A stretch of 64,000 bases of DNA from Phorcus lineatus. Lineage: Eukaryota > Mollusca > Gastropoda > Trochida > Trochidae. The notes beneath the pieces were generated by a model. It made no database searches. It saw only the letters and a list, made by a program, of their open reading frames with translations, and had not been told where the DNA came from. How positions within the stretch are numbered: the stretch's first letter is position 1; every line of letters begins with the position of its first letter. The position numbers were made by a program, and so were the translations under genes. Below, one piece after another: positions 1,744 to 48,900 of this stretch. The stretch covers positions 6,514,285-6,578,284 of the forward strand of contig OV121096.1 in NCBI GenBank assembly GCA_921293015.1, given 5' to 3'.

Positions 1744-4700
1744 AAGTGAAATCAGTAGGCCAGTGTGGGTTATTTAAATTTATACTGTATGTGTAAAGTT
1801 GACAGACATTATTTCTCATGGCTACTTTTGGAAAATAGGCCCACGCTATAAAATACCTCTTGTGTCTAGCCTATATGGAACAAAACAGCAAAATTATCAT
1901 TACTTATGTGAAGGTTTAGCTTATAACCATAGGTGATGAAGACCTTTTCTTATTGCTCTCTTATTGTTTTATTATTTGAGTTGATCTGCAGTTCTCCAAA
2001 AAATATTCACCGATGTTCATGAAATGTTAAGAAATGATAGCAATTCTAATGATTTAAATTAACGTCTCAGATTAACGTCTCTTTTTTATCCTGGATCTAA
2101 TGAAAAATAATTGGACTTGATGAAAACCTTTTACTGTGTGATTTATCGCATATAATCAATGGAACACAATAAAGGAGACATTCATATGCTTAATGCTTTC
2201 GAATATGTAGGAGACAAGGAGATTTTTAATATTCTGATAGATTTTATTTACTATGTTGAATGCAATATGTAAACCACGCCTTTGACAAGATTAAAAACTT
2301 TAACCACACAGCTGAAATTGATGCATTTCAAAATATAGTCAAGGACTCCGTTTGAAGTTGGAATTAGCATTTTCAAAAGGCTACTCTTCTATAGATCTAC
2401 TCAATATATATGAATGAAGCTATGAATATATATATGAATGTTTATTCGTATTTACACCCTCATGGCGAAAGGTACAAAATCGTATACATTCATGAGGTCA
2501 ATGCGCATGGACATCAGAATTATTGAGTACATGGGAAGATTGTATTTCAGATAAATGAAAAAATTATTTAAGCATTCAACGTCAACAAATTAAAAATATT
2601 TCGATTTTTTTCTACTGAATACAATGAACTATAAAAGACAAAACTTTTGTCCTTTAATGTCAAGCAATCACTTGTTAGCAACAGTGAATATAATGGCCTC
2701 TAGAAGAGTTTAAACATTAAGAAATGTTGATAAAAATGATAAAAATATCACCAATTGTTAAGGTTTTTTAAGGTTCCAGTACAGTTGAATAGAAAGTTAA
2801 AAGACATTTTATGGTTAAGAACTACACTATTGCTGCGGTTTCTCCCGTTACATACAAACATATACATAGCCTGTGCTCAAAGTGAAGTAGTTCTTGAATT
2901 GCCTCTCATAAAAGACAATGATATGCTTGTTTTATTCCTTGTTTATGCCCTTACTGGGATTTTGTTATGTCTGCAGATAATTGGCCTTTCAACAACTTCA
3001 TATCTTTTATCAACGTAACGAGAACACGTTGTATGCTTTATCTACGATTGTTTTTTTCTGGAAAAGAAAAAAGAACTCCTAAAACTTTTCTTCCTGAATT
3101 AAACGCTGCTACTATTGACAAAGTGAAAATAGGAAAGCACATATATGTACATATGCAGAATGAATAATGACTGGTTTCTGAAAAAGTAATTTTTTATGTT
3201 GGTGATGTGAAACTCTGTTTAAAAATTACTAAACCATAAGACTGACTATTAAAAGAAAAAAGATCAGATGCTAACGGATTTTAATGGGGCATTTGTTTTC
3301 TTAAAATGGAGACTAACTGAAGAGGGCTAAGATGCCTTTGGTAAATTCTTTTAAAAAAATTAAGTCCTCTACCTGACAACCTTGAGATAATGATTTTACT
3401 TTTAATTTAGAATATATATGTTTTATCGATTGTTGTTGACAACTATTAATAACCATTTTTAAAAGAAAAAAAAAACCTTAATGCAATAGTAATATAACAG
3501 GTTTGAGAACATAGCTAACTAGTTGAAACAGTCCGCTAAAAATATATATAGGAAATGAATGAAAGAGTTTATGAAACATGGATGATTTATTCAAATACTA
3601 TTTGACGTAGGTATTGTTAACATTAGTTCTAGTATTAATTTGTATCAACACATACAATTTAAATAGGTGCCATTCTGGATTTATCCAAATTATTTTCCAG
3701 ATATCCACTTGAAATTATTAATAGGCCTATAAGATAAGACGAAAATGGCTTAATTTCAAATTTTAAAAAATATAGGCTTTCAAATAATCTATTTGGACTG
3801 AATTTTTTTTACGTAATATAAGATCGAAAAAGCACTACATAAATAGTGTGAGGCTATCAAGATACAGGAAATCGCACTTAAAGCAAAATAGAATGTTGTG
3901 ATAAATTGTTAACATACTATTACTTTTTGAGAAGTCTACTGAAATAAATCTATCTAGTAGAATAATCACTTTAGAAAACGAGAAACATAGTAACTGGAAT
4001 GGGAAAAATAATATTTATCAGTAAACGGATTAGGTTATAACTGCCACATCTTTTGTGAAATGTTAAGCTCTGTTTCCATACAGATGATGAACATTAAAAG
4101 ATGATTAATGCTTTGGGATTTGTTTTCTTGTGAAGAAGTTATTTATTGCCAAATATTAAGTTGAAAATAAAATCAACGAAACATTTAACCTTTAAATTGA
4201 AACACTTGAACAAATTAGTGTTACCATCTAAAAGGAACGACTATTTTCTAGTTTAGTTTTATCCAGTCTCATATGTCTGAAAACACATGGGACATCCTGC
4301 TTGGTAAGTATGTACATTAATTGATATATCACCCAGAGCATAGTACTTGGAAAGATAGTATGATAAAGTACTGAGGTAAACCGATTGTTGCTCAACTATC
4401 CTGTGGTTGCATGCTTTCTGGCTTTATATTCAAATTATAAAGTTACATTGTGAAAAACTTGTTGGGGCGATCACCTCGTTGATATTATCACATTCCACTT
4501 TGAAAATTGTTTTTATTCTTTCAATTTCTCACCTTCCAGCACCCATTCTACTCACGATAGGTTTTTACCATATGATGCACTTTTGTTCACAACTTCATCG
4601 ATTAAAAACGGTATTCCATGTAAGCTAACACATTAAGAAATAAATATACTGACGTAGATGAATAAAAGTTTTGTAGAATGTAATTCTGAATAAAATGTGC

Positions 4701-5740
4701 AACCTACGAAACATACCGCCATTATTGGTTTGCTTGTCCCATGAAGTTAAATTGAAATAATAGCAAGGTACTATCGCCGCTCTGAATTACGCATGCGCCA
4801 GTTTTGATTGACTGACTGGATTGGTCTATTAACATGTAAGTGGTGATCAAAGAGTTTTTGGTAATATATCAAGACGAAGATGACATGTTAGAAAGCATTT
4901 GGATTAGTATGAGATGAATCATGAATATAAACATAATCATAACGTTGCTACAACTTCAAAGTAATTTATGTCTGGTTTCTATGAAGTTTTTACATTCATC
5001 TTATAATGAGTAATACGAGTAAATATCGAAAGGATAAATTTATTTCAAGTTATCCGTTCCTGATTATTCACAAACCACACTGACAGCAACATAATTGCGG
5101 TATAAATCTTTCGAGATGACGGCTTTGAATGATGTGTTCATCTACTCTCAGGGGTATCTTTTGAATGGATATGAGATTCAGCTTGTAAATCGCGAGAGAA
5201 TAGTTACATAAAGATGTCATAGTCGTTATATACTGCATCATTCCTACAGCACTACTAAGAACTAAGTAAAGTTTTTATGAATGGCTCTATATAAATTATT
5301 CACCATGGGGGAAATATTGAATTTGTGCATTCTTTTAATCATATAATGAAGTGACTCTTTTCTCAAACACAGTTTGTTTCATTTTTGTTTCTCTACTATG
5401 CACTTACATTCTTTACTATACTTAACTATTACTTTACTATGATTAAGTATTAGTTATAAAATTGCACTTCAAACCAAATGCATTAGGATTTTGAAAGGGA
5501 AACATCATTAAAGTATATATTTTAATAGTACAAATCTAGCTTTAAAACCATTTTCAACTTTGAAGAGAACAATCAACGACTGTTGAGAAAACTTATAATC
5601 ATAAATATTTATTGATTTCTATCATAATTTTTAAGTTGTAACGCAAAGAAACACACACAAGGGCCACGACCAAGCTGTCGGTATATTTATCGCAAACAAC
5701 TATGTCAAATATTTTATTCAGTAATATGTCATTTGATTCC
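1744..5740. other. Anonymous AT-rich intergenic DNA
   Basis: About 4 kb with only short chance open frames and no recognisable exon, RNA gene or repeat family. Local ATATAT and A/T runs occur, for example near 2400-2440. Confidence 0.5.
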
Positions 5741-21338: not shown

Positions 21339-21347
21339 TTTTCACGG
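21339..21347. repeat. Left 9-bp target site duplication
   Basis: TTTTCACGG lies immediately outside the left inverted terminus and is identical to 28497-28505. Confidence 0.92.
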
Positions 21348-23437
21348 GGGAAGCTGAAGTTAGCAGCGGGTTAGTTATTCGTTATTCGTTATTCGAATAA
21401 CGAATAACTGACGCAGCAGCGGGTTCGTTATTCGAATGACCGATCTCTGATCAGACAAACATTCAAACATTCAAACATTCAATATAGATATACTCACCAT
21501 ATATTCGAATAAACTGACCGGTGATTATAGACAAACATTCAAACAATTAACTTCACTTTTTATATATTGAAGTAACTATGAGGTTATCCAGACAAACATA
21601 AGGCATTCAATAGATAACTAGTTTAGTTTCTAAAATTTATTGTTATTCAACACCCGTATATTAAGGATAAAACCGTAAACATTACAAACGGAAGTGTATA
21701 TATCGATGTTGTAACATGACCCATAATTATTAGAATTTTAAGAGCGAACTCTATTTTGGCATAGGAAAAATAGTGATATAAACATTAATATCAAAAGATT
21801 GCACTTTTAATACAGTAAATATGCAATGGAAGTTATCTTAGATGTTATTTATGATATATTAGAGAGAAAACAGTTAGATAAGTCATCGACAAACATGTTA
21901 AAAAAATACATTCTCTCACTAGAAACTTGAATAACTGATCAGAGATTCAGACAGACATTCAAACATTCAAATATACTCTTAGTAGGGATTTGAATAACTG
22001 ATCAGAGATTCAGATAGATATTCAAACATTCAAATATACTCTTAATAGAAACTTGAATAACTGATCAGAGATTCAGACAGACACTAAAACATTCAAATCT
22101 ACTCTTACTTGGGATTTTAATAACTGATCAGAGATTCAGACAGACATTCAAACATTCAAACATTCAAATTTACTCTTACTAGCTATTTGAATAACTGATC
22201 AGAGATTCACACAGACATTCAAACATTCAAACATTCAAATCTACTCTTAGTAGGGATTTGAATAACTGATCAGACATTCAGACAGACATTCAAACATTCA
22301 AATATACTCTTACTAGAAATTTAAATAACTGATCAGAGATTCAGACAGACATTCAAACATTCAAATCTACTCCTACTAAGGATTTGAATAACTGATCAGA
22401 GATTCAGACGGACATTCAAGCATTCAAATATACTCTTAGTAGGGATTTGAATAACTGATCAGAGATTCAGACAAACATTCAAAAATTTAAACATTCAAAT
22501 TTATTCTTACTAGCTATTTGAATAACTGATCAGAGATTGACACAGACATTCGAACATTAAAACATTCAAAACTACCCTTACTAGGGATTTGAATAACTGA
22601 TCAGAGATTCAGACAGACATTCAAACATTCAAATCTACTCCTACTAAGGATTTGAATAACTGATCAGAGATTCAGACAGACATTCAAAAATTCAAAAAAA
22701 CTCTTACCAGCTATTTGAATAACTGATCAGAGATTCAGACAGACATTCAAACATTCAAACATTAAAATCTACTCTTACTAGCAATTTGAATAACGGATCA
22801 GAGATTCAGACAGACATTCAAACATTCAAACATTCAAAACTACTCTTACTAGCTATTTGAATAACTGATCAGAGATTCAGACAGACATTCAAACATTCAA
22901 ACATTAAAATCTACTCTTACTAGCAATTTGAATAACGGATCAGAGATTCAGACAGACATTCAAACATTCAAACATTCAAATCTACTCCTACTAAGGATTT
23001 GAATAACTGATCAGAGATTCAGACAGACATTCAAACATTCAAATTTACTCTTACTAGCTATTTGAATAACTGATCAGAGATTCAGACAGACATTCAAACA
23101 TTCAAAACTACTCCTACTAAGGATTTCAATAACTGATCAGAGATTCAGACAGACATTCAAACATTCAAATTTACTCTTACTAGCGATTTGAATGACTGAT
23201 CAGAGATTCACACAGACATTCAAAGATTCAAATCTACTCTTACTAGGGATTTGAATAACTGATCAGAGATTCAGACAGACATTCAAACATTCAAATATAC
23301 TCTTAGTAGGGATTTGAATGACTGATCAGAGATTCACACAGACATTCAAACATTCAAATCTACTCTTACTAGGGATTTGAATAACTGATCAGAGACTCAG
23401 ACAGACATTCAAACATTCACACATTCAAATATATTCT
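21348..23437 (+). repeat. Left terminal inverted repeat
   Basis: About 570 bp of non-tandem terminal sequence (to about 21920) is followed by about 23 copies of a 63-bp unit. The first copies start at 21929 and 21992. The unit reads approximately GAATAACTGATCAGAGATTC, then AGACAGACATTCAAACATTC, then AAATCTACTCTTACTAGGGATTT. Some copies are longer by extra 8-bp ACATTCAA repeats. The sequence matches the right end in inverted orientation. Confidence 0.92.
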
Positions 23438-23556
23438 TACTGGGGATAGATGGGTCCTGTTCGATTATCTTAATTTTGTGGCCTATTAATGATGTATATG
23501 TTTATTTTGGATGAAACGTAATTTAAACGAATCAAAATCGACCTAGTAGAAAATTT

Positions 23557-23725
23557 ATAGAATAGCCCTAGCCATTATGTGTTTAGTATTAATATATAGT
23601 TTTGCACTGAGCTATTATTACCCCAAATTACTCAGCCTACGGTGTCGTGCTTTAACTACAAAGGTTCAGGGCCCAGGGCAAAACTATACTTTATTGCAAA
23701 CACATAATGACTAGGGCTGTTCTAT
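23557..23725. mobile_element. Fold-back MITE-like element, copy 2
   Basis: The outer arms are inverted: ATAGAATAGCCCTAGCCATT on the left pairs with the sequence ending at 23725. The inner part carries CAGGGCAAAACTATACTTTA, the same core as the element at 1570-1743. It is more diverged and its central stem is imperfect. It lies inside the MULE-like element, so it probably inserted there. Confidence 0.75.
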
Positions 23726-24855
23726 CTCTAAAATAAATGATAACATGGACGTAATGAATCAGATTAAACACAGGTATGATGATATTTTTTTTATTGTTCC
23801 TGGTTCTCGATAAACATCATATTGAAAATTTCTTACTGAATAAAATTCTTATCTTAAATAAAACTTTTATAAGAATCATCTGTAATGTATCATCAGAAGT
23901 AAAAGCAACGACCTGAAATGGACATCTCTGGTTGAACAAAATTTAGGAAAGATTAATGAAACTTGTTACATTTTACTGTTACATTGTATAACAATTTACC
24001 ACACATTTTTGTGACATTTTACAGCACCCCCTATTACAATTAACTGTACAAGTCTGTATTACATTTCACTGCCTTTTTGTTTACAGCTGACACTGTTACT
24101 TCAATGCATCAAGTAATACTTTAATGAAAGGCATTATTTCGGAAACCTAAATTAATACCTACGTATAATAGGGTCTGAGAAAACAATCACGTCTGTTAAT
24201 CGCTATAGATTCAATTGCAGACTCAAAGGACTAATTCGGTCAGAAATAATATTTCAGAAATATGTTTTTAGCTCGACCACGAGTATAACCAGGTGTACCA
24301 ATTACCAAAATTTCACTCATCAGGATGAAAAAGTTCATGAGAAATCCCCATCATGCACCATACGATTAAAATGACATTTCCAATGACACAACCAACATTT
24401 AAAACAAAAATTTGAAAACTATGTGTGCAAACTGATGGCCCTACGGAAGGACGGAGATAAACGTAATAATTTCTATTCTATTTCTTTGTAGCGGGGATAC
24501 GAAAAGATTAGTCAAAATGAAACAAATTAATAGATTCCAATTACATTATAACTTGACCAAAATGTGTCTGATTATTTTGCAGTACACCACATAACAGATG
24601 AATAAATGTATCAGCTGCAACATTTAATCACATGTGAAAATAATGAAAAAGCTATTTCTCAATGACATTATAAGTATATATACACAATACTTCCACTAGA
24701 TTACATGCATGGCAATAAAAGTTCAAGAACTTCAATTCATGAAAAGACAAAATGATGTGAGGTATGCTGACAGAATAGTAAAACATTAAACATTTGTGGC
24801 ATTCCAAAAACTTCCAGGACAGCAGAAGCACAACTGCTGTAAATCTATCAACTTG
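23726..24855. other. Transposon interior without recognised coding sequence
   Basis: This lies downstream of the protease exon, between the fold-back element and the coding remnant. It probably contains the 3' UTR and trailer of the minus-strand gene. No exon is recognised. Confidence 0.4.
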
Positions 24856-24861
24856 TCATCT

Positions 24862-25045
24862 TTATGCCAAGTAAGTATCGTCCAGAACATACACAACATG
24901 TTCAAGCTGGCCGTTGGATCCGCGTATACCTGAGCAAGTAACTTCCGGTCGGTTTAATCCGTCATATCTGTACCATTCTTTGTTGATCAGGAAGAAGGCT
25001 TTGAAGTGACTTGAATGGCAGAGCGTGTAACCATACAAGGAGTAC
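24862..25045 (-). pseudogene. Last exon: His box of the USP-like domain
   Basis: The acceptor is TTTACAG|G. The frame reads YSLYGYTLCHSSHFKAFFLI then NKEWYRYDGL and ends DDTYLA-stop. The H..HF.AF...W..YDGL arrangement matches the catalytic His region and following acidic residue of ubiquitin-specific proteases. This exon is open throughout. Confidence 0.8.
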
Positions 25046-25299
25046 CTGTAAAGTACATGATGGTTGGACAATAATTATAAATGGCGTGTCTACATATTTT
25101 AATTTCTCACTAGGAGCTTAACAAAAGTGTGAAACTAAACAAGAACACTGATGCCTCCAATGCAAAGGTCAAATTCACGAGGTCAAAAGTTATTGTTATT
25201 CCCTCACCTGAAAGGCCTTGATAGGTGAAACGTTAAGTAATTTACCCGTTTATGTAATTTACTAGAGGAGCAGCATCGTATAATTTTAACTCCACTTAC

Positions 25300-25459
25300 G
25301 TTTTTTTCTGAATGCAGATGTCATCTGGCAACATAGTTGGCGTGAGTCCCCTTGATTGACTCAGATAGGAGACACTCATGATGAGGACTGGAGGGTCTTC
25401 CATGAGGAATTGTCGCTTTGTGCTGATTCTTATTCCTTTGCATGGTCCGTGTGGAGTTG
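25300..25459 (-). pseudogene. Protease-domain middle exon
   Basis: It encodes TPHGPCKGIRISTKRQFLME, then DPPVLIMSVSYLSQ, and ends at LPDDICIQKKT. It is bordered by TATACAG| and AC|GTAAGT. The P-x-x-L-I-M-S-V and L-P-D-D-I blocks are like the segment before the His box in C19 peptidases. Its 160 bases split as 2 + 156 + 2, consistent with both neighbours. Confidence 0.75.
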
Positions 25460-25567
25460 CTGTATAACCAAATGATTAACATATTTTGATATTGATTTTA
25501 AAAATTTACTGTAAATTAGTAGAGATTTTTTATAATTATCATGTTACCAGTACATGCCGAAACGTAC

Positions 25568-25653
25568 CTGCTAAACAGCGCGACGGAGGTATTTGCTCCC
25601 AGTGTTCCACGCTTTTCTGAAGGCTGCATTGTTCAGAATCTCCACCAACATCA
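25568..25653 (-). pseudogene. Small connecting exon of protease domain
   Basis: It encodes DVGGDSEQCSLQKSVEHW and then EQIPPSRCLA. It is bordered by TTAAG| and CAG|GTACG. Its 86 bases split as 1 + 84 + 1, fitting both neighbours. Confidence 0.7.
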
Positions 25654-25797
25654 CTTAAACATAATATTTTCAAATTATCTTAGGATTAAAAAGGGGACCA
25701 TTGTTTTGTTTTAAACACACGTAGATCACTATGTTGCATTTCTTATTAACTCATTTTCAAAATTACCTAAATTATGAGAACAAATTGTCATCCTTAC

Positions 25798-26345
25798 CCA
25801 AGTAGAATTTCTCTGCTACGGAAGTTTCGCTCATGTCTGGGACACAAACGTTTGGAGCATGAGGAGGACACTTCTGTTTCTTGAATTTCCCCGAAGTGTT
25901 GCACAAACTTCTCTGACTCTCCTCCCCAGACGTTCCACGTGGCCTCTTCAGGTATAGCGATGTACTTCTGTAACCATATTGCACGTCCTTCTGTCCAGTG
26001 CCCCGACTCAAACAGACTGCTGATGTCAAGAAGGGTTTGACAAACATTAAGTTTGTGTTCCTCAAACCATTTCCTGATACAGTCTTTCTTCAACAGGTAG
26101 AACAAAATCATCAGAAGATTGTCGACTGTGCATGTGTTGGAAAGATGCAACAGTCGGTCTCCAAACTGGACCTGTCCACCCCAGTGCAGTCCATCAAAGC
26201 TTTTGCTTGTATTCTTTGATAGTAATGTTGTCTTCAACGGTTTCACATCAGCTGGTGTGCTGAAGAACATCCCTTTTTTGGTTTTCTTTGCTCCCCACTT
26301 CTCCTCTGAGGTTGAAAAGGAGTTTTTTCTTTTCTTTTTCTTGAA
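25798..26345 (-). pseudogene. Protease-domain exon with Cys box
   Basis: The frame contains FFSTPADVKPLKTTLLS, FDGLHWGGQVQFGDRLLHL and SNTCTVDNLL, ending at REILLG. The donor is CTTGG|GTAAGG at 25798/25797. The phase matches the next exon (starting 25653), giving G-D-V-G-G. NTC within a hydrophobic helix start is the hallmark of the C19 (ubiquitin-specific protease) Cys box. The frame upstream of about 26335 is shifted by one base relative to the transposase part. Confidence 0.75.
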
Positions 26346-27136
26346 GTTTCCTGCTTAACAGGTTTGTCATTGCAATGATCTTGATATTCGCGTAGACGTC
26401 CTTTCAAATTCGCTCTAATGTCAATGATAAAATTGCTTGGGGTTAAGCGTTTTTTTCCTCCAAGGATATCTTTCTTAACTATCTTCATCCAGTTCTCCGC
26501 TGGGCTATTGGTGTCATGATTTGTATCTTCCAGCAGCAGGCCTGTCCACAATGGCAAGATGTGAAAATAGTTGTTCAGAAGATAGGATAGTGTACCTGGA
26601 CTGTAGTGAGGATTTAGTTTTAGATCTGATTGTAGAGGTTGCTTTTCGATTGCTGTATCCTGTGCTCTGATCTGATGCTCTGATCAAGCTCTGGGTGTGT
26701 GCCTAGGTGTTTAGACATCAGTAAGAATGCCAGACTTCGAAAATGGTTGTCGATTGCCTGAAGTTTATTCGTGTCTAGGATGCGAGCAATCACATATAGC
26801 ATGTATTTTCTTGAATCTTTGTTTTTTACAACCTTAACCAGCTTTCCCGAAATGGCGTGAAGAAGATGAGCAGAGCAAATGTGAATCTTTGTGAAGTTTG
26901 TCCAAATTCCATTGCCATGAACTACATCCCATGATAACATCCAATTAAAATGTATAAGCAGATGTAATCATATTTGAAAATGATTATGATACATTTATTA
27001 CTTACCTAAAATGTTGCTCTTTCCCCTCCATTCTTATTACGTTGTTGTTGTACCAGCTGATCTTCGTGAAGGATGACCCCGTCTTAGAAATTACCGTTAT
27101 GAAATCTTATATTATCTTGTTCATGTGAAATAAACA

Positions 27137-28496
27137 AATAAGAATCTCTGATCAGTTATTCAAATCCCTAATAAGAGTAGATTTGAATGTTTGAATGTCT
27201 GTCTGAATCCCTGATCAGTTAGTTATTCAAATCCGTAGCAGGAGTAGATTTGAATGTTTGAATGTCTGTCTGAATCTCTGATCAGTTATTCAAATCCTCT
27301 GCAGAAGTAGATTTGAATGTTTGAATGTCTGTCTGCATCTTTGATCAGTTATTCAAGTTTTTAGTGAAAGTAAATTTAAATGTTTGAATGTCTGTGTGAA
27401 TCTCTGATCAGTTATTCAAATCCCTACTAAGAGTATATTTGAATGTTTGAATGTCTGTCTGAATCTCTGATCCGTTATTCAAATCCCTACTAAGAGTAGA
27501 TTTGAATTTTTGAATGTCTGTTTGCATCTCTGATCAATTATTCAAGTTTCTAGTAAGAGTATATCTGAATGTTTGAATGTCTGTCTGAATCTCTGATCAG
27601 TTATTCAAGTTTCTAGTGAAAGTATATTTGAATGTTTGAATGTCTGTGTGAATCTCTTATCAGTCATTCAAATCCCTACTAAGAGTATATTTGAATGTTT
27701 GAATGTCTGTGTGAATCTCTGATCAGTTATTCAAATCCCTACTAAGAGTATATTTGAATGTTTGAATGTCTGTCTGAATCTCTGATCCGTTATTCAAATC
27801 CCTACTAAGAGTAGATTTGAATTTTTGAATGTCTGTTTGCATCTCTGATCAGTTATTCAAGTTTCTATTAAGAGTATAGTTGAATGTTTGAATGTCTGTC
27901 TGAATCTCTGATCAGTTATTCAAGTTTCTAGTGAGAGAATGTATGGGTTTTTTTTATCTTGTTTGTCGATGAATTATCTAACTGTGTTCTCTCTAATATA
28001 TCATAAATAACATCTAAGATAATTTCCATTGCAACTTTACTGTATTAAAAGTGCAATCTTTTGATATTAATGTTTATATCACTGGGATTTTCCTACGCCA
28101 GAATAGAGTTCGCTCTTAAAATTCTATAACTATGGGTCATGTTACAATATAGATGTACACTTCCGTTATGGTTTTATCCTTAATATACGGGTGTTGAATA
28201 ACAATAAATTTTAGAAACTAAACTAGTTATCTATTGAATGCCTTATGTTTGTCTGGATAACCTCATAGTTACTTCAATATATAAAAAGTGAAGTTAATTG
28301 TTTGAATGTTTGTCTATAATCACCGGTCAGTTTATTCGAATATATGGTGAGTATATCTATATTGAATGTTTGAATGTTTGAATGTTTGTCTGATCAGAGA
28401 TCGGTCATTCGAATAACGAACCCGCTGCTGCGTCAGTTATTCGTTATTCGAATAACGAATAACGAATAACTAACCCGCTGCTAACTTCAGCTTCCC
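27137..28496 (-). repeat. Right terminal inverted repeat
   Basis: About 13 copies of the 63-bp unit in inverted orientation (about 27141-27935) are followed by a ~560-bp terminal section matching 21348-21920 in reverse complement. There are roughly ten fewer units than on the left, so the arrays have expanded or contracted independently. Confidence 0.92.
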
Positions 28497-28505
28497 TTTT
28501 CACGG
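28497..28505. repeat. Right 9-bp target site duplication
   Basis: TTTTCACGG lies directly after the terminal CCC of the element and is identical to 21339-21347. Confidence 0.92.
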
Positions 28506-33738: not shown

Positions 33739-33986
33739 CTATAAATTGATTATGTACACATTATTTATGAGGAGATACAAACTCATCAATAAGGCCACTG
33801 TAAGTATGGTGCCATATCCGTCACCATGGAAACCTACTGCTGCATTGCAAGAGTCTTTGCTACAAAAGCAGTATGTTGCTGTAAAGTTCTCTTTGGTATT
33901 GGTCCACACATGACAACCGTCTGTTTCGTTGATTCCCGGTAGCGATCCAAACGCATAACAACTCCTGATGACACCGACCCAGTCTT
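33739..33986 (-). CDS. LU gene exon 3 (coding part)
   Basis: The acceptor is TTTACTGTTCCAG| at 33987. It encodes residues 71-151, from DWVGVIRSCYAFG to the hydrophobic tail TILTVALLMSLYLLI, with a TAG stop at 33739-33741. The first two bases complete codon 70 (Glu). Confidence 0.9.
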
Positions 33987-36900
33987 CTGGAACAGTAAAT
34001 GAATTGCTTTCATCTCAATGACTCTATCTTGTCCTAGTAATATCATCATCATCAACATCATCCTCATCATCATCAACATCACTATCATCAACATCATCAT
34101 CATCATCAATATCATCATCAACATCAATATAATCATCATCATCATCATCATCATCATTTCATCAACAATTGTAAATTGAATTTAAAGTAAATGTTACAAA
34201 AAATCAACACATATATGATATTTTTACCAAAACAAATGGTCATTACCTTTTTCAATGAAAATATTGACAAATAGTTAGACACAAGGAGGCGCTTCTATGG
34301 GATTAAGAGGAGTCGGGGAAAGGTGATCAGAAACAGGGGTATACATGTAGGGTCGGAGGGGGGAGTGGGGTGGTTTGTATGGGATGGAGGGAGAGTGGCG
34401 GGTTCACTTGCCTTGTCCATTATGGTTGATGGGCGGCTGAATTTGCTTTCCACACTTAGCGTACCCCCTTGGACATTCGTGCTCTGAGAACTGGTACGCT
34501 TTAAACGACTCTCCACACGCGTCGGTCCTGCTGTTGTCGCAAATGTAACACTTTATTGCAGTTCCTGAAAACAAACACGCTGAGATTAAATCATGGACTT
34601 GCTTCAATATTTTTCTTGTCATTGTTTTACTTACATAACAATTAGTGGCGTATTAATGGATTTCTGTGACAGTTCTTTTCTCAACGAAAAAGAAATTTAA
34701 AAAGGCGGGACTACATTACAGTTTTTATTTTGACACTGCCAAAACGTTACTTTTAAATGTGATTTATGGATTTGAGAGTATGTAATAGTACACTGAGCCA
34801 TAACTTCTGAAGTGAAAACGCAACATCTCAGTTTTGAATTCGCCGTGCCGTGATGATTTAAGACATCAGAAACAATATTTGTACTAGGATTAGCAAATAG
34901 GTGAACAAACTTTCGGAATGCAGTTGTTTGACAATGTAGTCGGTCTGATAGATGCAAATTGATCAATAAAACATCAACCTACAATCGAAATCTATGAGAA
35001 ATAAAAGAAAAAGGAAAACCGCTTTGTATGACTAAGATTATTTTGATATTAATTTGTTGGAAATTCGGAAACCAAATGTATACTTTTAATGTAACAAAAA
35101 TGTTATCTATAACATTCCATATCACCTCCCGAACTTATTTTATAACCTTAAGTCTTACAGCGCAGGAATCAGGTCGATGCCATCTATAATCTATAATGGT
35201 ACATGTAGATTTATAGACATGGTTTATAAAAGGTGAATGTAAAAGGTAGGCGTGTTCTATTTTGATTTTAATTGGCAACAGTGTATAGGTAACGACAGAT
35301 TGACGAATCCATGTACTTTTACAAAAGTATAATACAATTGCTTTTTCTGCGAATTTCAAATCTCAGTATATACAATATTAATAAGATGCGTTTTTAATCT
35401 ATATCTCAATCTATAATTACAAATATAATCATAATTAAAATAGAGAACCATGAGAAGGTAAATAATAACTACTACTACTAAACCACTGATAGCTAAAAGA
35501 ATGATAAACTTTTACCATAAACATGTATTAGAAAACAATAATTTATCGTTTGATATGTTAACTTTAATCACTTCAGATGTATCTTGTAACTATCAATCAC
35601 CATGAGTTAATCATATTGAATCAATACTAAACAATTGTGGGCTTTCATATGTACTCTTGTTACCAAAACTTTACGATAGACTGTGGCTAGTGAATACCGT
35701 AGAGACGGTCCTAAGTGACCAATTTTATTTATCTTGGCATAGTTCGGTTAATAACAGCTCAAAAGGATTCTATTATAAATACCACAAAAAGTTACCTGGT
35801 TTTGAAAACTACCTTTGTCTACCAAAAAGCATCGCTTATCCTATGCTTAAATTCAGAACCACCAACCACAAATTACCTATTGAAAAAGGTCGCTGGAATA
35901 ATACACCTAAAGAAAACAGAACTTGTAATTTATGTAATTCAACAGCTATTGCAGACGAATTTCACTATATTTTCCGTTGTACTGCGCTAGATATCCAAAG
36001 AAACAACCTTTTACCAAGTAAATATGTTAATAAACTACCATGAGGTCGATAATCCATTCTAATAGATATATGATGAGTGATCACTTTAAGTGAGCAATCT
36101 ATCTTAATTAACAGGTCAATTTTTGACTAATAAAGGTAAAACGTTACAACCAAATCTACAAGGCATGCAGATATCATCTATTATGGACTTACCAACGATA
36201 ACCACATCTTACGTGGTTCTTACGTAAGGTCAAGGTCAAGGTCAAGGTCAAATTATAAATAAGTCATGACCTCGCTCCTACGGTTCACCACAATGTATTT
36301 ACATGTCACCGAAGAAACGTTTTTTTCACTAACCAGAAATAAGTAATGGCTCAAGATTTAAATCTGCAGAAATTATCAGCTGGCATGTGAGCTAGTCAAT
36401 ATAAGTATTAATAACCATGCCGAGTTACCTATGATTACGTCTTTTACAGCGCTCTTATTTTATAGCAAAGATCATGTAACACACTATTGGTCTCCAGGTC
36501 ATAAATACCAATAAAATCTGTCTGTGTGTAAATGTTATGATCTCCTCTCAAAGGTTTAATCACAAGGGTTGCAAATGTCAACGATAAAACGTTTAGCACT
36601 AATCAGTCAAAAGTTATGGATCAAAGTTAAGTTTTTTCGAAAATGATGAAGGCATTATCAAAATCGATTTGTATGTCAGGCATCAAAGGCTCATCACTAA
36701 CTAGGCATAAGTTATGAATCATCGTTAAAGTATTTGGCGATAAGCAGTTAGACGGAAAGGTGAAACACCAAATACCCGATGAATCTCTGATTCTTGGGCA
36801 TACAAATCTGCATAAGAACCTGAAATTGTATTCACACTTAACAACAAATGATTTTGACAATTAAAGAGACATTACAGTATTATATTGAACAAGATGTATG

Positions 36901-45900: not shown

Positions 45901-48900
45901 ATTCCCATAACAGAAAATCAAGTGTCTACATACTAGGCATTGTACCTTATATTGATTTTCCTGTATACAAACTGAAGTCAATTATTCTCTTTAGCGCAAG
46001 AGACAAACTAGCTGTGAGTTGAACACGATACTGTTTATTTAGGCAAGTCGTATTTTGAACTTTTCCCTGATAGAATCCTATGGAACAGATTATCTTCAAC
46101 AAATTCATTTTATTGAGTCTAATCTTACTATGCCTGAGAATCATAATATGCTGGACGAATACTCAACGGATTTACCAAGTGTTTAATGGCATCTTGAATA
46201 TAAATTTACTATTATTTGACACAAATTGCGAATCATTGACAATTGTGAATACACAAAAATATCTTCATCACGATACAGCGTGTATGTTACCGACATTCAA
46301 ACGGCAATTATCCATTACGTTTCATTTATTTTCTCTTTCATCTAAATGGCGACTGTAGATCGAAGAGATATCAGCTGATGCTACACTGATCTCACAACGG
46401 AGAAATGTATTTTTGCTGTAGGACAATTTGAAGTTTGATGAGTTTCAAATGTATTCCTCGTTAAATGGATCAAACAACGTATAATGTAAATTTACAATAA
46501 CTTCTGTCATGTGCATACATATTTACATGGATAGTCTAATGTACATAACCTGTTAAATAGATAATAAATGGTCACATGTACGTACCTGTGTTAAATAAAT
46601 CTGTATACATAAAGTCTTAAATAGATTATACATAGTCCAATGTACATAAAGTATTAGATAGATCATGCCTAGTCCAAAGTGCATAAAGTGTTAAATAGAT
46701 CATGCATAGTCCCATGTGCGTAAAGATCATACATGGCCCCTATGTGCATAAAGTGTTAAATAGATCATACATGTACATAGTCCCATGTGCATAAAGTGTT
46801 AAATAGATAATGCATGGTCCCATGTACATATAGTTAAATAGATCATACATGGCCCCATGTACATAAAGTGTTAGATATATAGATTATGCATACATGTAGT
46901 CCCATGTACATAAAGTGTTAAATAGATCATACATGGCCCCATGTACATAACGTGTTAAATAAATCATGCATAGTCCCATATGCATAAAGTGTTGAATAGA
47001 TCATACATGGCCCCATGTACATAACGTGTTAAATAGATCATGCATGGTCCCAAGTGCATAACGTGTTAAATAGATAATGCATGGTCCCAAGTACATAAAG
47101 TGTTAAATAGATCATACATAGTCCCATGTACATAAAGTGTTAAATAGATAATGCATGGTCCCATGTACATAACGTGTTAGATAGATCATGCATGGTCCCA
47201 AGTGCATAACGTGTTAAATAGATAATGCATGGTCCCATGTACATAAAGTGTTAAATAGATCATGCATAGTCCCAAGTGCATAAAGTGTTAAATAGATCAT
47301 ACATAGTTCCACGTACATAAAGTGTTAAATAGATCATACATGGTCCCATGTACATAACGTGTTAGATAGATCATGCATGGTCCCAAGTGCATAACGTGTT
47401 AAATAGATAATGCATGGTCCCATGTACATAAAGTGTTAAATAGATAATGCATGGTCCCATGTACATAACGTGTTAAATAGATAATGCATGGTCCCATGTG
47501 CATAAAGTGTTAAATAGATCATACATGGCCCCATGTACATAACGTGTTAAATAGATAATGCATGGTCCCATGTACATAACGTGTTAGATAGATCATGCAT
47601 AGTCCCATGTACATAAAGTGTTAAATAGATCATACATAGTTCCATGTACATAAAGTGTTAAATAGATCATACATGGTCCCATGTACATAACGTGTTAGAT
47701 AGATCATGCATGGTCCCAAGTGCATAACGTGTTAAATAGATAATGCATGGTCCCATGTACATAAAGTGTTAAATAGATAATGCATGGTCCCATGTACATA
47801 ACGTGTTAAATAGATAATGCATGGTCCCATGTACATAACGTGTTAGATAGATCATGCATGGTCCCATGTACATAAAGTGTTAAATAGATAATGCATGGCC
47901 CCATGTACATAACGTGTTAAATAGATAATGCATGGTCCCATGTACATAAAGTGTTAAATAGATAATGAATGGTCCCATGTACATAAAGTGTTAAATAGAT
48001 CATGCATGGCCCCATGTACATAACGTGTTAAATAGATCGCACATAGTCCCATGTGCATAACGTGTTGACTAGATCATGCATGGCCCGCTGTACATAAAGT
48101 GTTAAGGATGTTCGCTCCTCAGTCACAGTTACAAAATTCAAATAACCTTAAATGATAATGTTCTTATATAATAAACCAAAATGAAGCAGTAATTTCTCAA
48201 TTTTGATCATCTTGACTAAATATTCATCAAAATAAAGAGTATTTTCATTTTGAAATAATTGATAATTTTGCTGACTCAGCAATTTTAATTGTAACTATTA
48301 TTTGAGCAAGTTCTATTATCTGTTTTTCTTAGAAAGTAGATGTTGTTAAATAAATATGATTTGTATGAATGCGTTTGGGTATATTTTAAGATAATGAGGG
48401 GGAGAAAGCATGTTTATAGTCAAAAAATAGCTTGAAATGTTGATACTTTAATTGAAATGTGCTGTAGCGCCTAAAAACCCACAGTACAATACATATTTTT
48501 TACTTTTTTTTCTGGAAGAAGATTATGTTAACTCTAAAATGTTTTCATATTAAGTATATTAAGTTTAATACAGAAACTAATTAAAATTTAAGATTTCTCC
48601 GAACAGGTCATGATTTTTCCATATACTCCCATGATAAAATTCTGACTGACAGATGGATCTTTGTCATGAAATATCTCGAAAAAAAACACACTAACCCCTA
48701 TTTTTGGGGGTGGATATTTCAAGGAAATACACTAAACCTTTGAAAAAAAAACAAGTTAGAAAGAAAAGTTAAATACTTTAAATTTGAGGAACGGACATCC
48801 TTAAATAGATCATACACGGTCCCATGTACATAAGGTGTTAAATACAGCATACAAAGGCTGTGTATACTTTACGAGTCTTAAGTAGATAAGGTTTGTTACG

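Follow-up and report, generated by a model that had tools for sequence, protein, structure and literature searches.

The stretch of DNA analyzed here (the window; 64,000 nt of the genome of the gastropod Phorcus lineatus, contig OV121096.1, positions 6,514,285 to 6,578,284 of the forward strand) contains what is probably a foldback-type MULE-like DNA transposon, with a gene on the minus strand between its inverted arms (Table 1). An earlier note on this DNA had described a transposase remnant joined to a USP-like cysteine protease domain at 24862..27085. This extent was too small, since the feature is one element of 7149 bp (21348-28496), flanked by an exact target-site duplication. The inverted ends contain tandem subrepeats in both arms, as is typical of foldback-type elements, and the 331-nt outer repeats together with the tandem inner arms give the element the long terminal inverted repeats that characterize MULEs. 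The gene region retained upstream of an internal deletion possibly includes a 5' non-coding exon, as judged by eye.

Table 1 Features of the element in the window (positions of the window; strand as read for each feature).
Feature	Position	Strand	Remark
Whole element, probable foldback-type MULE-like DNA transposon, internally deleted copy	21348-28496	.	7149 bp; ends common to other copies
Element ends	21348-28496		Start GGGAAGCTGAAG, finish CTTCAGCTTCCC; found in other copies too
Left target-site duplication, TTTTCACGG	21339-21347	+	Identical to 28497-28505
Right target-site duplication, TTTTCACGG	28497-28505	+	9 bp, exact
Outer terminal inverted repeat, left arm	21348-21678	+	331 nt; complementary to 28166-28496 at 330/331 positions
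Outer terminal inverted repeat, right arm	28166-28496	-	331 nt
Inner left inverted arm, tandem array	21913-23419	+	63-bp unit, 22.9 copies; inverted relative to 27142-27923
Inner right inverted arm, tandem array	27142-27923	-	63-bp unit, 12.3 copies
5' part of the gene kept on the upstream side of the deletion	26932-27140	-	Matches L009 just inside the L009 arm
Open frame with transposase remnant 1	26623-26967	-	Protein residues ~386-483; CxxH motif ICSAHLLHAIS
Open frame with transposase remnant 2	26246-26683	-	Protein residues ~521-663; Glu motif TNSPAENW
Linker and N-terminal half of the protease	25798-26354	-	In L010, part of the same exon as the transposase
Candidate catalytic Cys codon	26130-26132	-	LSNTCTVDNLL; in exon 25798-26354
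Protease exon 2	25568-25653	-	Reading frame and splice sites consistent across the window, L010, L011, L012 and L013
Protease exon 3	25300-25459	-	Contains PPVLIMSVSYLS, which aligns with the LKRF box of USPs
Protease exon 4 and stop	24862-25045	-	
Candidate catalytic His codon	25006-25008	-	SHF; in exon 24862-25045
Candidate Asp codon	24961-24963	-	YDG; in exon 24862-25045

Elsewhere in the window, two exons of a Quiver-type u-PAR/Ly-6 protein, joined by eye, lie on the minus strand at 33742-34652 (PF17064, E 1e-12), and a large tandem array with a 37-bp unit (about 40 copies) occupies 46606-48105.

The peptides quoted in the earlier note are present on the minus strand at the places it had assigned to them, as confirmed by rechecking the codons. 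The agreement that it had claimed for the three downstream intron phases also holds: the linker exon and protease exons 2-4 are predicted to join in frame with a single terminal stop. The transposase part is more damaged. Relative to the predicted protein of another copy, L010 (C25:18852156-18864356), the window has no match for residues before ~386 or for residues ~484-520. It therefore lacks the two catalytic Asp (residues 297 and 372 of L010), and the reading frame shifts between the transposase remnants and the protease. Thus, the doubt previously expressed about the activity of this copy was justified. The window copy is unable to make a transposase and could move only with the help of another copy.

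L010 is predicted to encode a protein of 963 residues with a single terminal stop and no internal stop. Its first coding exon, of 820 full codons, covers both the D-D-CxxH-E transposase and the Cys box of the protease; the His and Asp boxes lie in three further, short exons. The union of both halves, proposed from the broken window copy, is thus found in a single predicted gene, and the same order of domains, transposase then protease, is seen in two diverged and decayed families (L016; L015/L030). We applied the same exon-joining script to the window and to six other copies. The frame is kept through these exons in four of the six (L010, L011, L012 and L013), a frameshift interrupts exon 3 of L009, and for L014 the exon-1 donor string of the script was not found and the exons were not joined. 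The gene of L011 has one internal stop. Over the 837 nt of protease-coding DNA, the window, L010 and L011 do not differ at any position, which points to recent spread.

The host genome (958 Mb) holds 33 matches to wnt, a gene family specific to animals, and is thus that of an animal. A search of it with the protease exon gave 11 matches, the window's own included, whilst the outer arm gave at least 146, many of which are tandem subrepeats. Nineteen loci were read for their ends, and the 15 with both ends were used to assess target duplications; outside these 15 are L012, L046 and L047, which have one end, and L011/L033, which has no complete left end. Two end-fragment sites, at C17:30.53 Mb and C15:37.27 Mb, are not among the 19. 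Exact duplications of 9 bp flank 10 of the two-ended copies, including that in the window, and exact duplications of 8 bp flank three; one of the remaining two has a 9-bp duplication with one mismatch and the other has none. When ends were mispaired as a control, a match was found in 1 of 210 pairings, between L044 and L045, the flanks of which are alike. These two loci (C41, 3.52 and 4.81 Mb) are elements of ~0.6 kb without a protein match, apparently at the same duplicated site. Screening of the 19 loci with the L010 protein (E 1e-5) revealed large parts of the gene in seven, a short C-terminal piece only in three and no match in nine, most of which have good ends. It is apparent from these sequences that the family has spread recently, deleted copies without a detectable coding part included.

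Our best explanation of the locus, to which we assign as a whole a probability of about 0.7, is that the window holds a non-autonomous, internally deleted member of a young foldback-type MULE-like family, and that full-length members of the family are predicted to encode, within one protein, both a DDE transposase and, C-terminal to it, a USP-like cysteine protease domain.

A related locus on C13 (L027, C13:13201619-13202698) contains the same transposase and linker in an open frame of 1043 codons, followed by NRRNSCWLNSSAQMF and then by further exons. Joined by eye, the L027 exons match UCH (E 8.3e-7, 29.3 bits against a cut-off of 23.9) at the same position as the protease in the element, and also match solved USPs, the best being USP46 (E 1.1e-4). 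The unspliced frame has no Pfam match, and a pattern search of part of the locus did not find the His box. The simplest view is that the C-terminal domains of the element and of L027 share common descent, despite a direct comparison between the element's domain and the joined UCH exons that gave nothing (E 0.76). The wider locus (L027/L034, C13:13187000-13206999, minus strand) combines the triad-bearing MULE-like transposase frame and the UCH exons with Ulp1/C48 exons ~10 kb downstream on the same strand (PF02902, E 1.2e-13, joined by eye). A blastn self-search of 30 kb (E 1e-4) found no inverted repeat there. The C13 locus is a candidate for a domesticated gene, or for two neighbouring genes.

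The predicted catalytic residues of the L010 protease run in the order Cys710, His916 and Asp931, which is the order of C19 proteases. Cys and His boxes are also present in L016, where NTC and SHF are kept at 45% identity. The Asn of NTC, the following DN, a PP box, SHF, W and YD are common to L010, L016, L015 and L030, with Tyr in place of Cys in the last two, both decayed (NAY in L015, NTY in L030). In Ulp1 (C48) proteases, which are carried by plant MULEs including the Kaonashi/KI-MULEs, the catalytic Cys comes last. L010 has no Ulp1/Peptidase_C48 match and its Cys comes first; the Cys-His-Asp order therefore fits USP and not Ulp1. We compared the domain with a reference alignment of five USP C-termini, which combines a USP of the host with parts of four solved ones. 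For the C-terminal half, the alignment covered 69 columns, running from the LKRF box as far as the GHY box, both in register, at a score of 23.3 that was reached by 1 of 400 shuffles (itself scoring 30.9); the reversed query scored 12.4 and the transposase 14.7. The Cys box is likewise in register with its counterparts in the USPs, but this match is not significant, an equal or higher score being reached by 62 of 400 shuffles. The residue at position -5 from the catalytic Cys, usually the oxyanion Asn in USPs, is His in the element.

Family searches with the element's own domain were largely silent. There was no UCH match (PF00443) in Pfam up to E 10, weak matches to Peptidase_C12 occurred in two of the four rows (L010, L016, L015, L030; best E 0.14), PDB searches returned no USP and chance matches only (best E 0.12, and 0.059 with a profile), and NCBIfam gave no match. 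Neither the window nor the L027 locus was among the 85 matches (E up to 0.1) when the genome was searched throughout for UCH, and the comparison with one host USP was confined to the LKRF box (E 0.099). Since its own domain has no UCH match, we call the protease USP-like and do not file it under C19. The resemblance to ubiquitin-specific proteases described in the earlier note is supported by the catalytic order and by the C-terminal alignment to solved USPs, and is not borne out by the Cys box on its own or by Pfam and PDB.

USPL1 combines SUMO specificity with a USP-like fold, and a protease of this kind (Pfam Peptidase_C98), acting on SUMO in parallel to the Ulp1-bearing MULEs, is an unlikely but not negligible alternative. 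The element has an Asp three residues after the Cys (CTVD; CPLD in L016), as does the host C98 gene (CWLD), and its SHF...W..YDGL resembles the DHF...W..CDDL of that gene. Alignment with hhalign placed the domain in register on the host C98 His box (score 21.3, P 0.027; score 17.8, P 0.1), but this is not significant, as 48 of 400 shuffles reach the score. The C98 model (PF15499) gave no match in Pfam searches of the element's domain, and its four matches in the genome all lie in one host gene and none in the element. The joined L027 exons match UCH and not C98.

The transposase residues D, D, CxxH and E are conserved between L010 and L027, which are 32% identical (D36, D111, C155xxH158 and E327 in the numbering of the aligned piece). 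Both contain a DDE triad with CxxH between the second Asp and the Glu, in the same order as in a MULE of the host. Against the ORF of this host MULE, which matches PF10551 (E 8.6e-11), a profile of the L010/L027 pair scored 30.4, with the alignment lying around the second Asp and this residue in register; none of 400 column shuffles reached this score (best 25.2). Under other settings, this alignment received a score of 25.2 (P 0.011). Target duplications of 8-10 bp, typically 9 bp, are a further mark of MULEs, and exact duplications of 8 or 9 bp flank 13 of the 15 two-ended copies. Pfam searches of L010 returned no transposase model, only two unrelated sub-threshold matches, and PF10551, the Pfam MULE model, is absent from both L010 and the L027 frame. 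Because there is no PF10551 match, we use the name MULE-like, a label that rests on the profile comparison. The earlier reading of these blocks as transposase-like is upheld, as MULE-like, by the target duplications, the motif order and the profile comparison. Scans with the transposase pair found no relatives in viral contigs or in prokaryote genomes, and a phage scan with the L010 transposase found none.

It is improbable, in our estimate, that this is the transposase of a different foldback-ended superfamily, such as P/Galileo, or of a new superfamily. The lack of a Pfam transposase model would be in keeping with this, as would the spacing from the second Asp to the Glu, 216 residues in the element against 121 in the host MULE. 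The P-like Galileo also has foldback-like ends, according to parts of its description (PMC3573991). Against such an origin stand the 9-bp duplications, the inverted ends of tandem repeats, the D-D-CxxH-E order and the score against the host MULE, MULE being the sole superfamily compared. A divergent MULE-like transposase is our best reading, within a comparison that covered the MULE superfamily alone. The host MULE transposase ORF in L028 (~2488-3411, minus strand, C7; PF10551, E 8.6e-11) lies ~1 kb from a fragment of the element family's transposase at 4565-4741.

To gauge constraint, we compared L010 with the diverged L016. The protease gave pN 0.344 and pS 0.884 (186 codons) and the transposase pN 0.377 and pS 0.780 (213 codons), values that show constraint roughly, the blocks having been chosen by protein alignment, which favors low pN, and the silent sites being saturated. 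L009 was left out of the protease table for its frameshift, and the L030 protease values (pN 0.417, pS 0.764) were discarded as an overlap of two blocks was counted twice. With silent change saturated, the low amino-acid change suggests constraint, and this is no weaker in the protease than in the transposase. L016 has inverted tandem-repeat arms, as in a foldback-type element. By eye, the arm repeat unit of this decayed family (C19:6263500-6273499) resembles the outer arm of the window, and AGTTATTCG and CGAATAACT occur in both. L015/L030 (C16:37519500-37536999) are two decayed copies in inverted orientation, ~5 kb apart, with blocks that are 93-98% complementary.

MULEs often capture host sequence. 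The protease could accordingly be passive cargo: as in Pack-MULEs, a piece of the host would have been picked up a single time, without contributing to transposition. The decayed L015/L030 have lost the Cys, and 9 of the 19 screened loci have no protein match (E 1e-5), most of them with good ends, as might be expected of cargo. On the other hand, the domain lies within one gene model in L010 and at the same place in L016 and L015/L030, as does the UCH domain in L027, and its amino-acid change is as low as that of the transposase while silent change is saturated. We therefore hold passive capture to be improbable too. The notion that the exons are unrelated and merely lie side by side, the remains of a transposase next to a host protease gene in decay, draws on the different frames of the two halves and the broken transposase in the window, and is refuted by L010, which joins both halves in one 820-codon exon of a gene between the same inverted ends.

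The target duplications and the triad point to cut-and-paste transposition with staggered cuts of 8-9 bp. The transposase would bind the terminal or tandem repeats, cut the element out and paste it elsewhere. The fused protease may strip ubiquitin, with SUMO as the less probable alternative, either off the transposase or off proteins of chromatin or DNA repair where the element leaves or inserts, and this removal could stabilize the transposase or ease host silencing. Related roles have been suggested for the Ulp1 and OTU domains of Ginger1 (in sections of PMC2836005) and for the VTD deubiquitinases of Helitrons (in sections of PMC9741609). We propose, tentatively and at somewhat under even odds for the whole, that an animal foldback-MULE lineage independently acquired a USP-class protease that is integral to its transposase and was selected across diverged families, and that a single host gene on C13, uniting triad-bearing transposase, UCH and possibly Ulp1 parts, may have been domesticated from it.

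Several known systems share parts of this design. Tm1, a Mutator/Foldback element of root-knot nematodes, likewise has composite inverted ends with internal repeats, a MULE-like transposase and non-autonomous copies, and 45 of 53 Tm1 elements have target duplications of 8-10 bp, mostly 9 bp (from portions of PMC3169594); those portions do not speak of a protease. Rehavkus shares the 9-bp duplications and a minisatellite with our element, but differs in its PHD finger, and MuDR-6_HM is a MULE with an OTU domain (PMC6446971, Table 1); that table has no USP entry. The words protease, peptidase and ubiquitin are absent from the main text of PMC13359780. We found no MULE with a USP among the open-access papers that our searches listed.

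The element's protease is not the first on an animal transposase. Ulp1 on Mutators of Hydra and lancelet and OTU or Ulp1 on Ginger1 (in the consulted parts of PMC2836005), as well as OTU on MuDR-6_HM (PMC6446971), are already published. The Ulp1-bearing MULEs of plants, Hydra and lancelet likewise join a cysteine protease from the ubiquitin/SUMO system to a MULE transposase (same parts of PMC2836005); in our element, by contrast, the Cys comes first with His and Asp after it, and there is no C48 match. Ginger1 similarly carries a C-terminal protease (OTU or Ulp1) on an animal DDE transposase, but the transposase is Gypsy-integrase-like and the protease of another class. A Trichomonas vaginalis protein, XP_001314237.1, also pairs a transposase with Peptidase C19 and is the sole published transposase-C19 association met in this literature search, so far as the consulted parts of PMC2836005 go; it differs in having a transposase_11 domain and in coming from a protist. 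Helitron VTD deubiquitinases are likewise borne by transposons, and some were later domesticated, but Helitrons are not DDE elements and the Asp-x-His active-site motif of VTD is unlike the order in our element (from extracts of PMC9741609). Proteases of the ubiquitin/SUMO system (Ulp1, OTU, VTD) thus recur on unrelated transposons. A USP-like protease on an animal MULE would, if true, strengthen the case that undoing ubiquitin-type marks aids transposition, and such a role could be tested directly in this family, which is young and has an uninterrupted copy.
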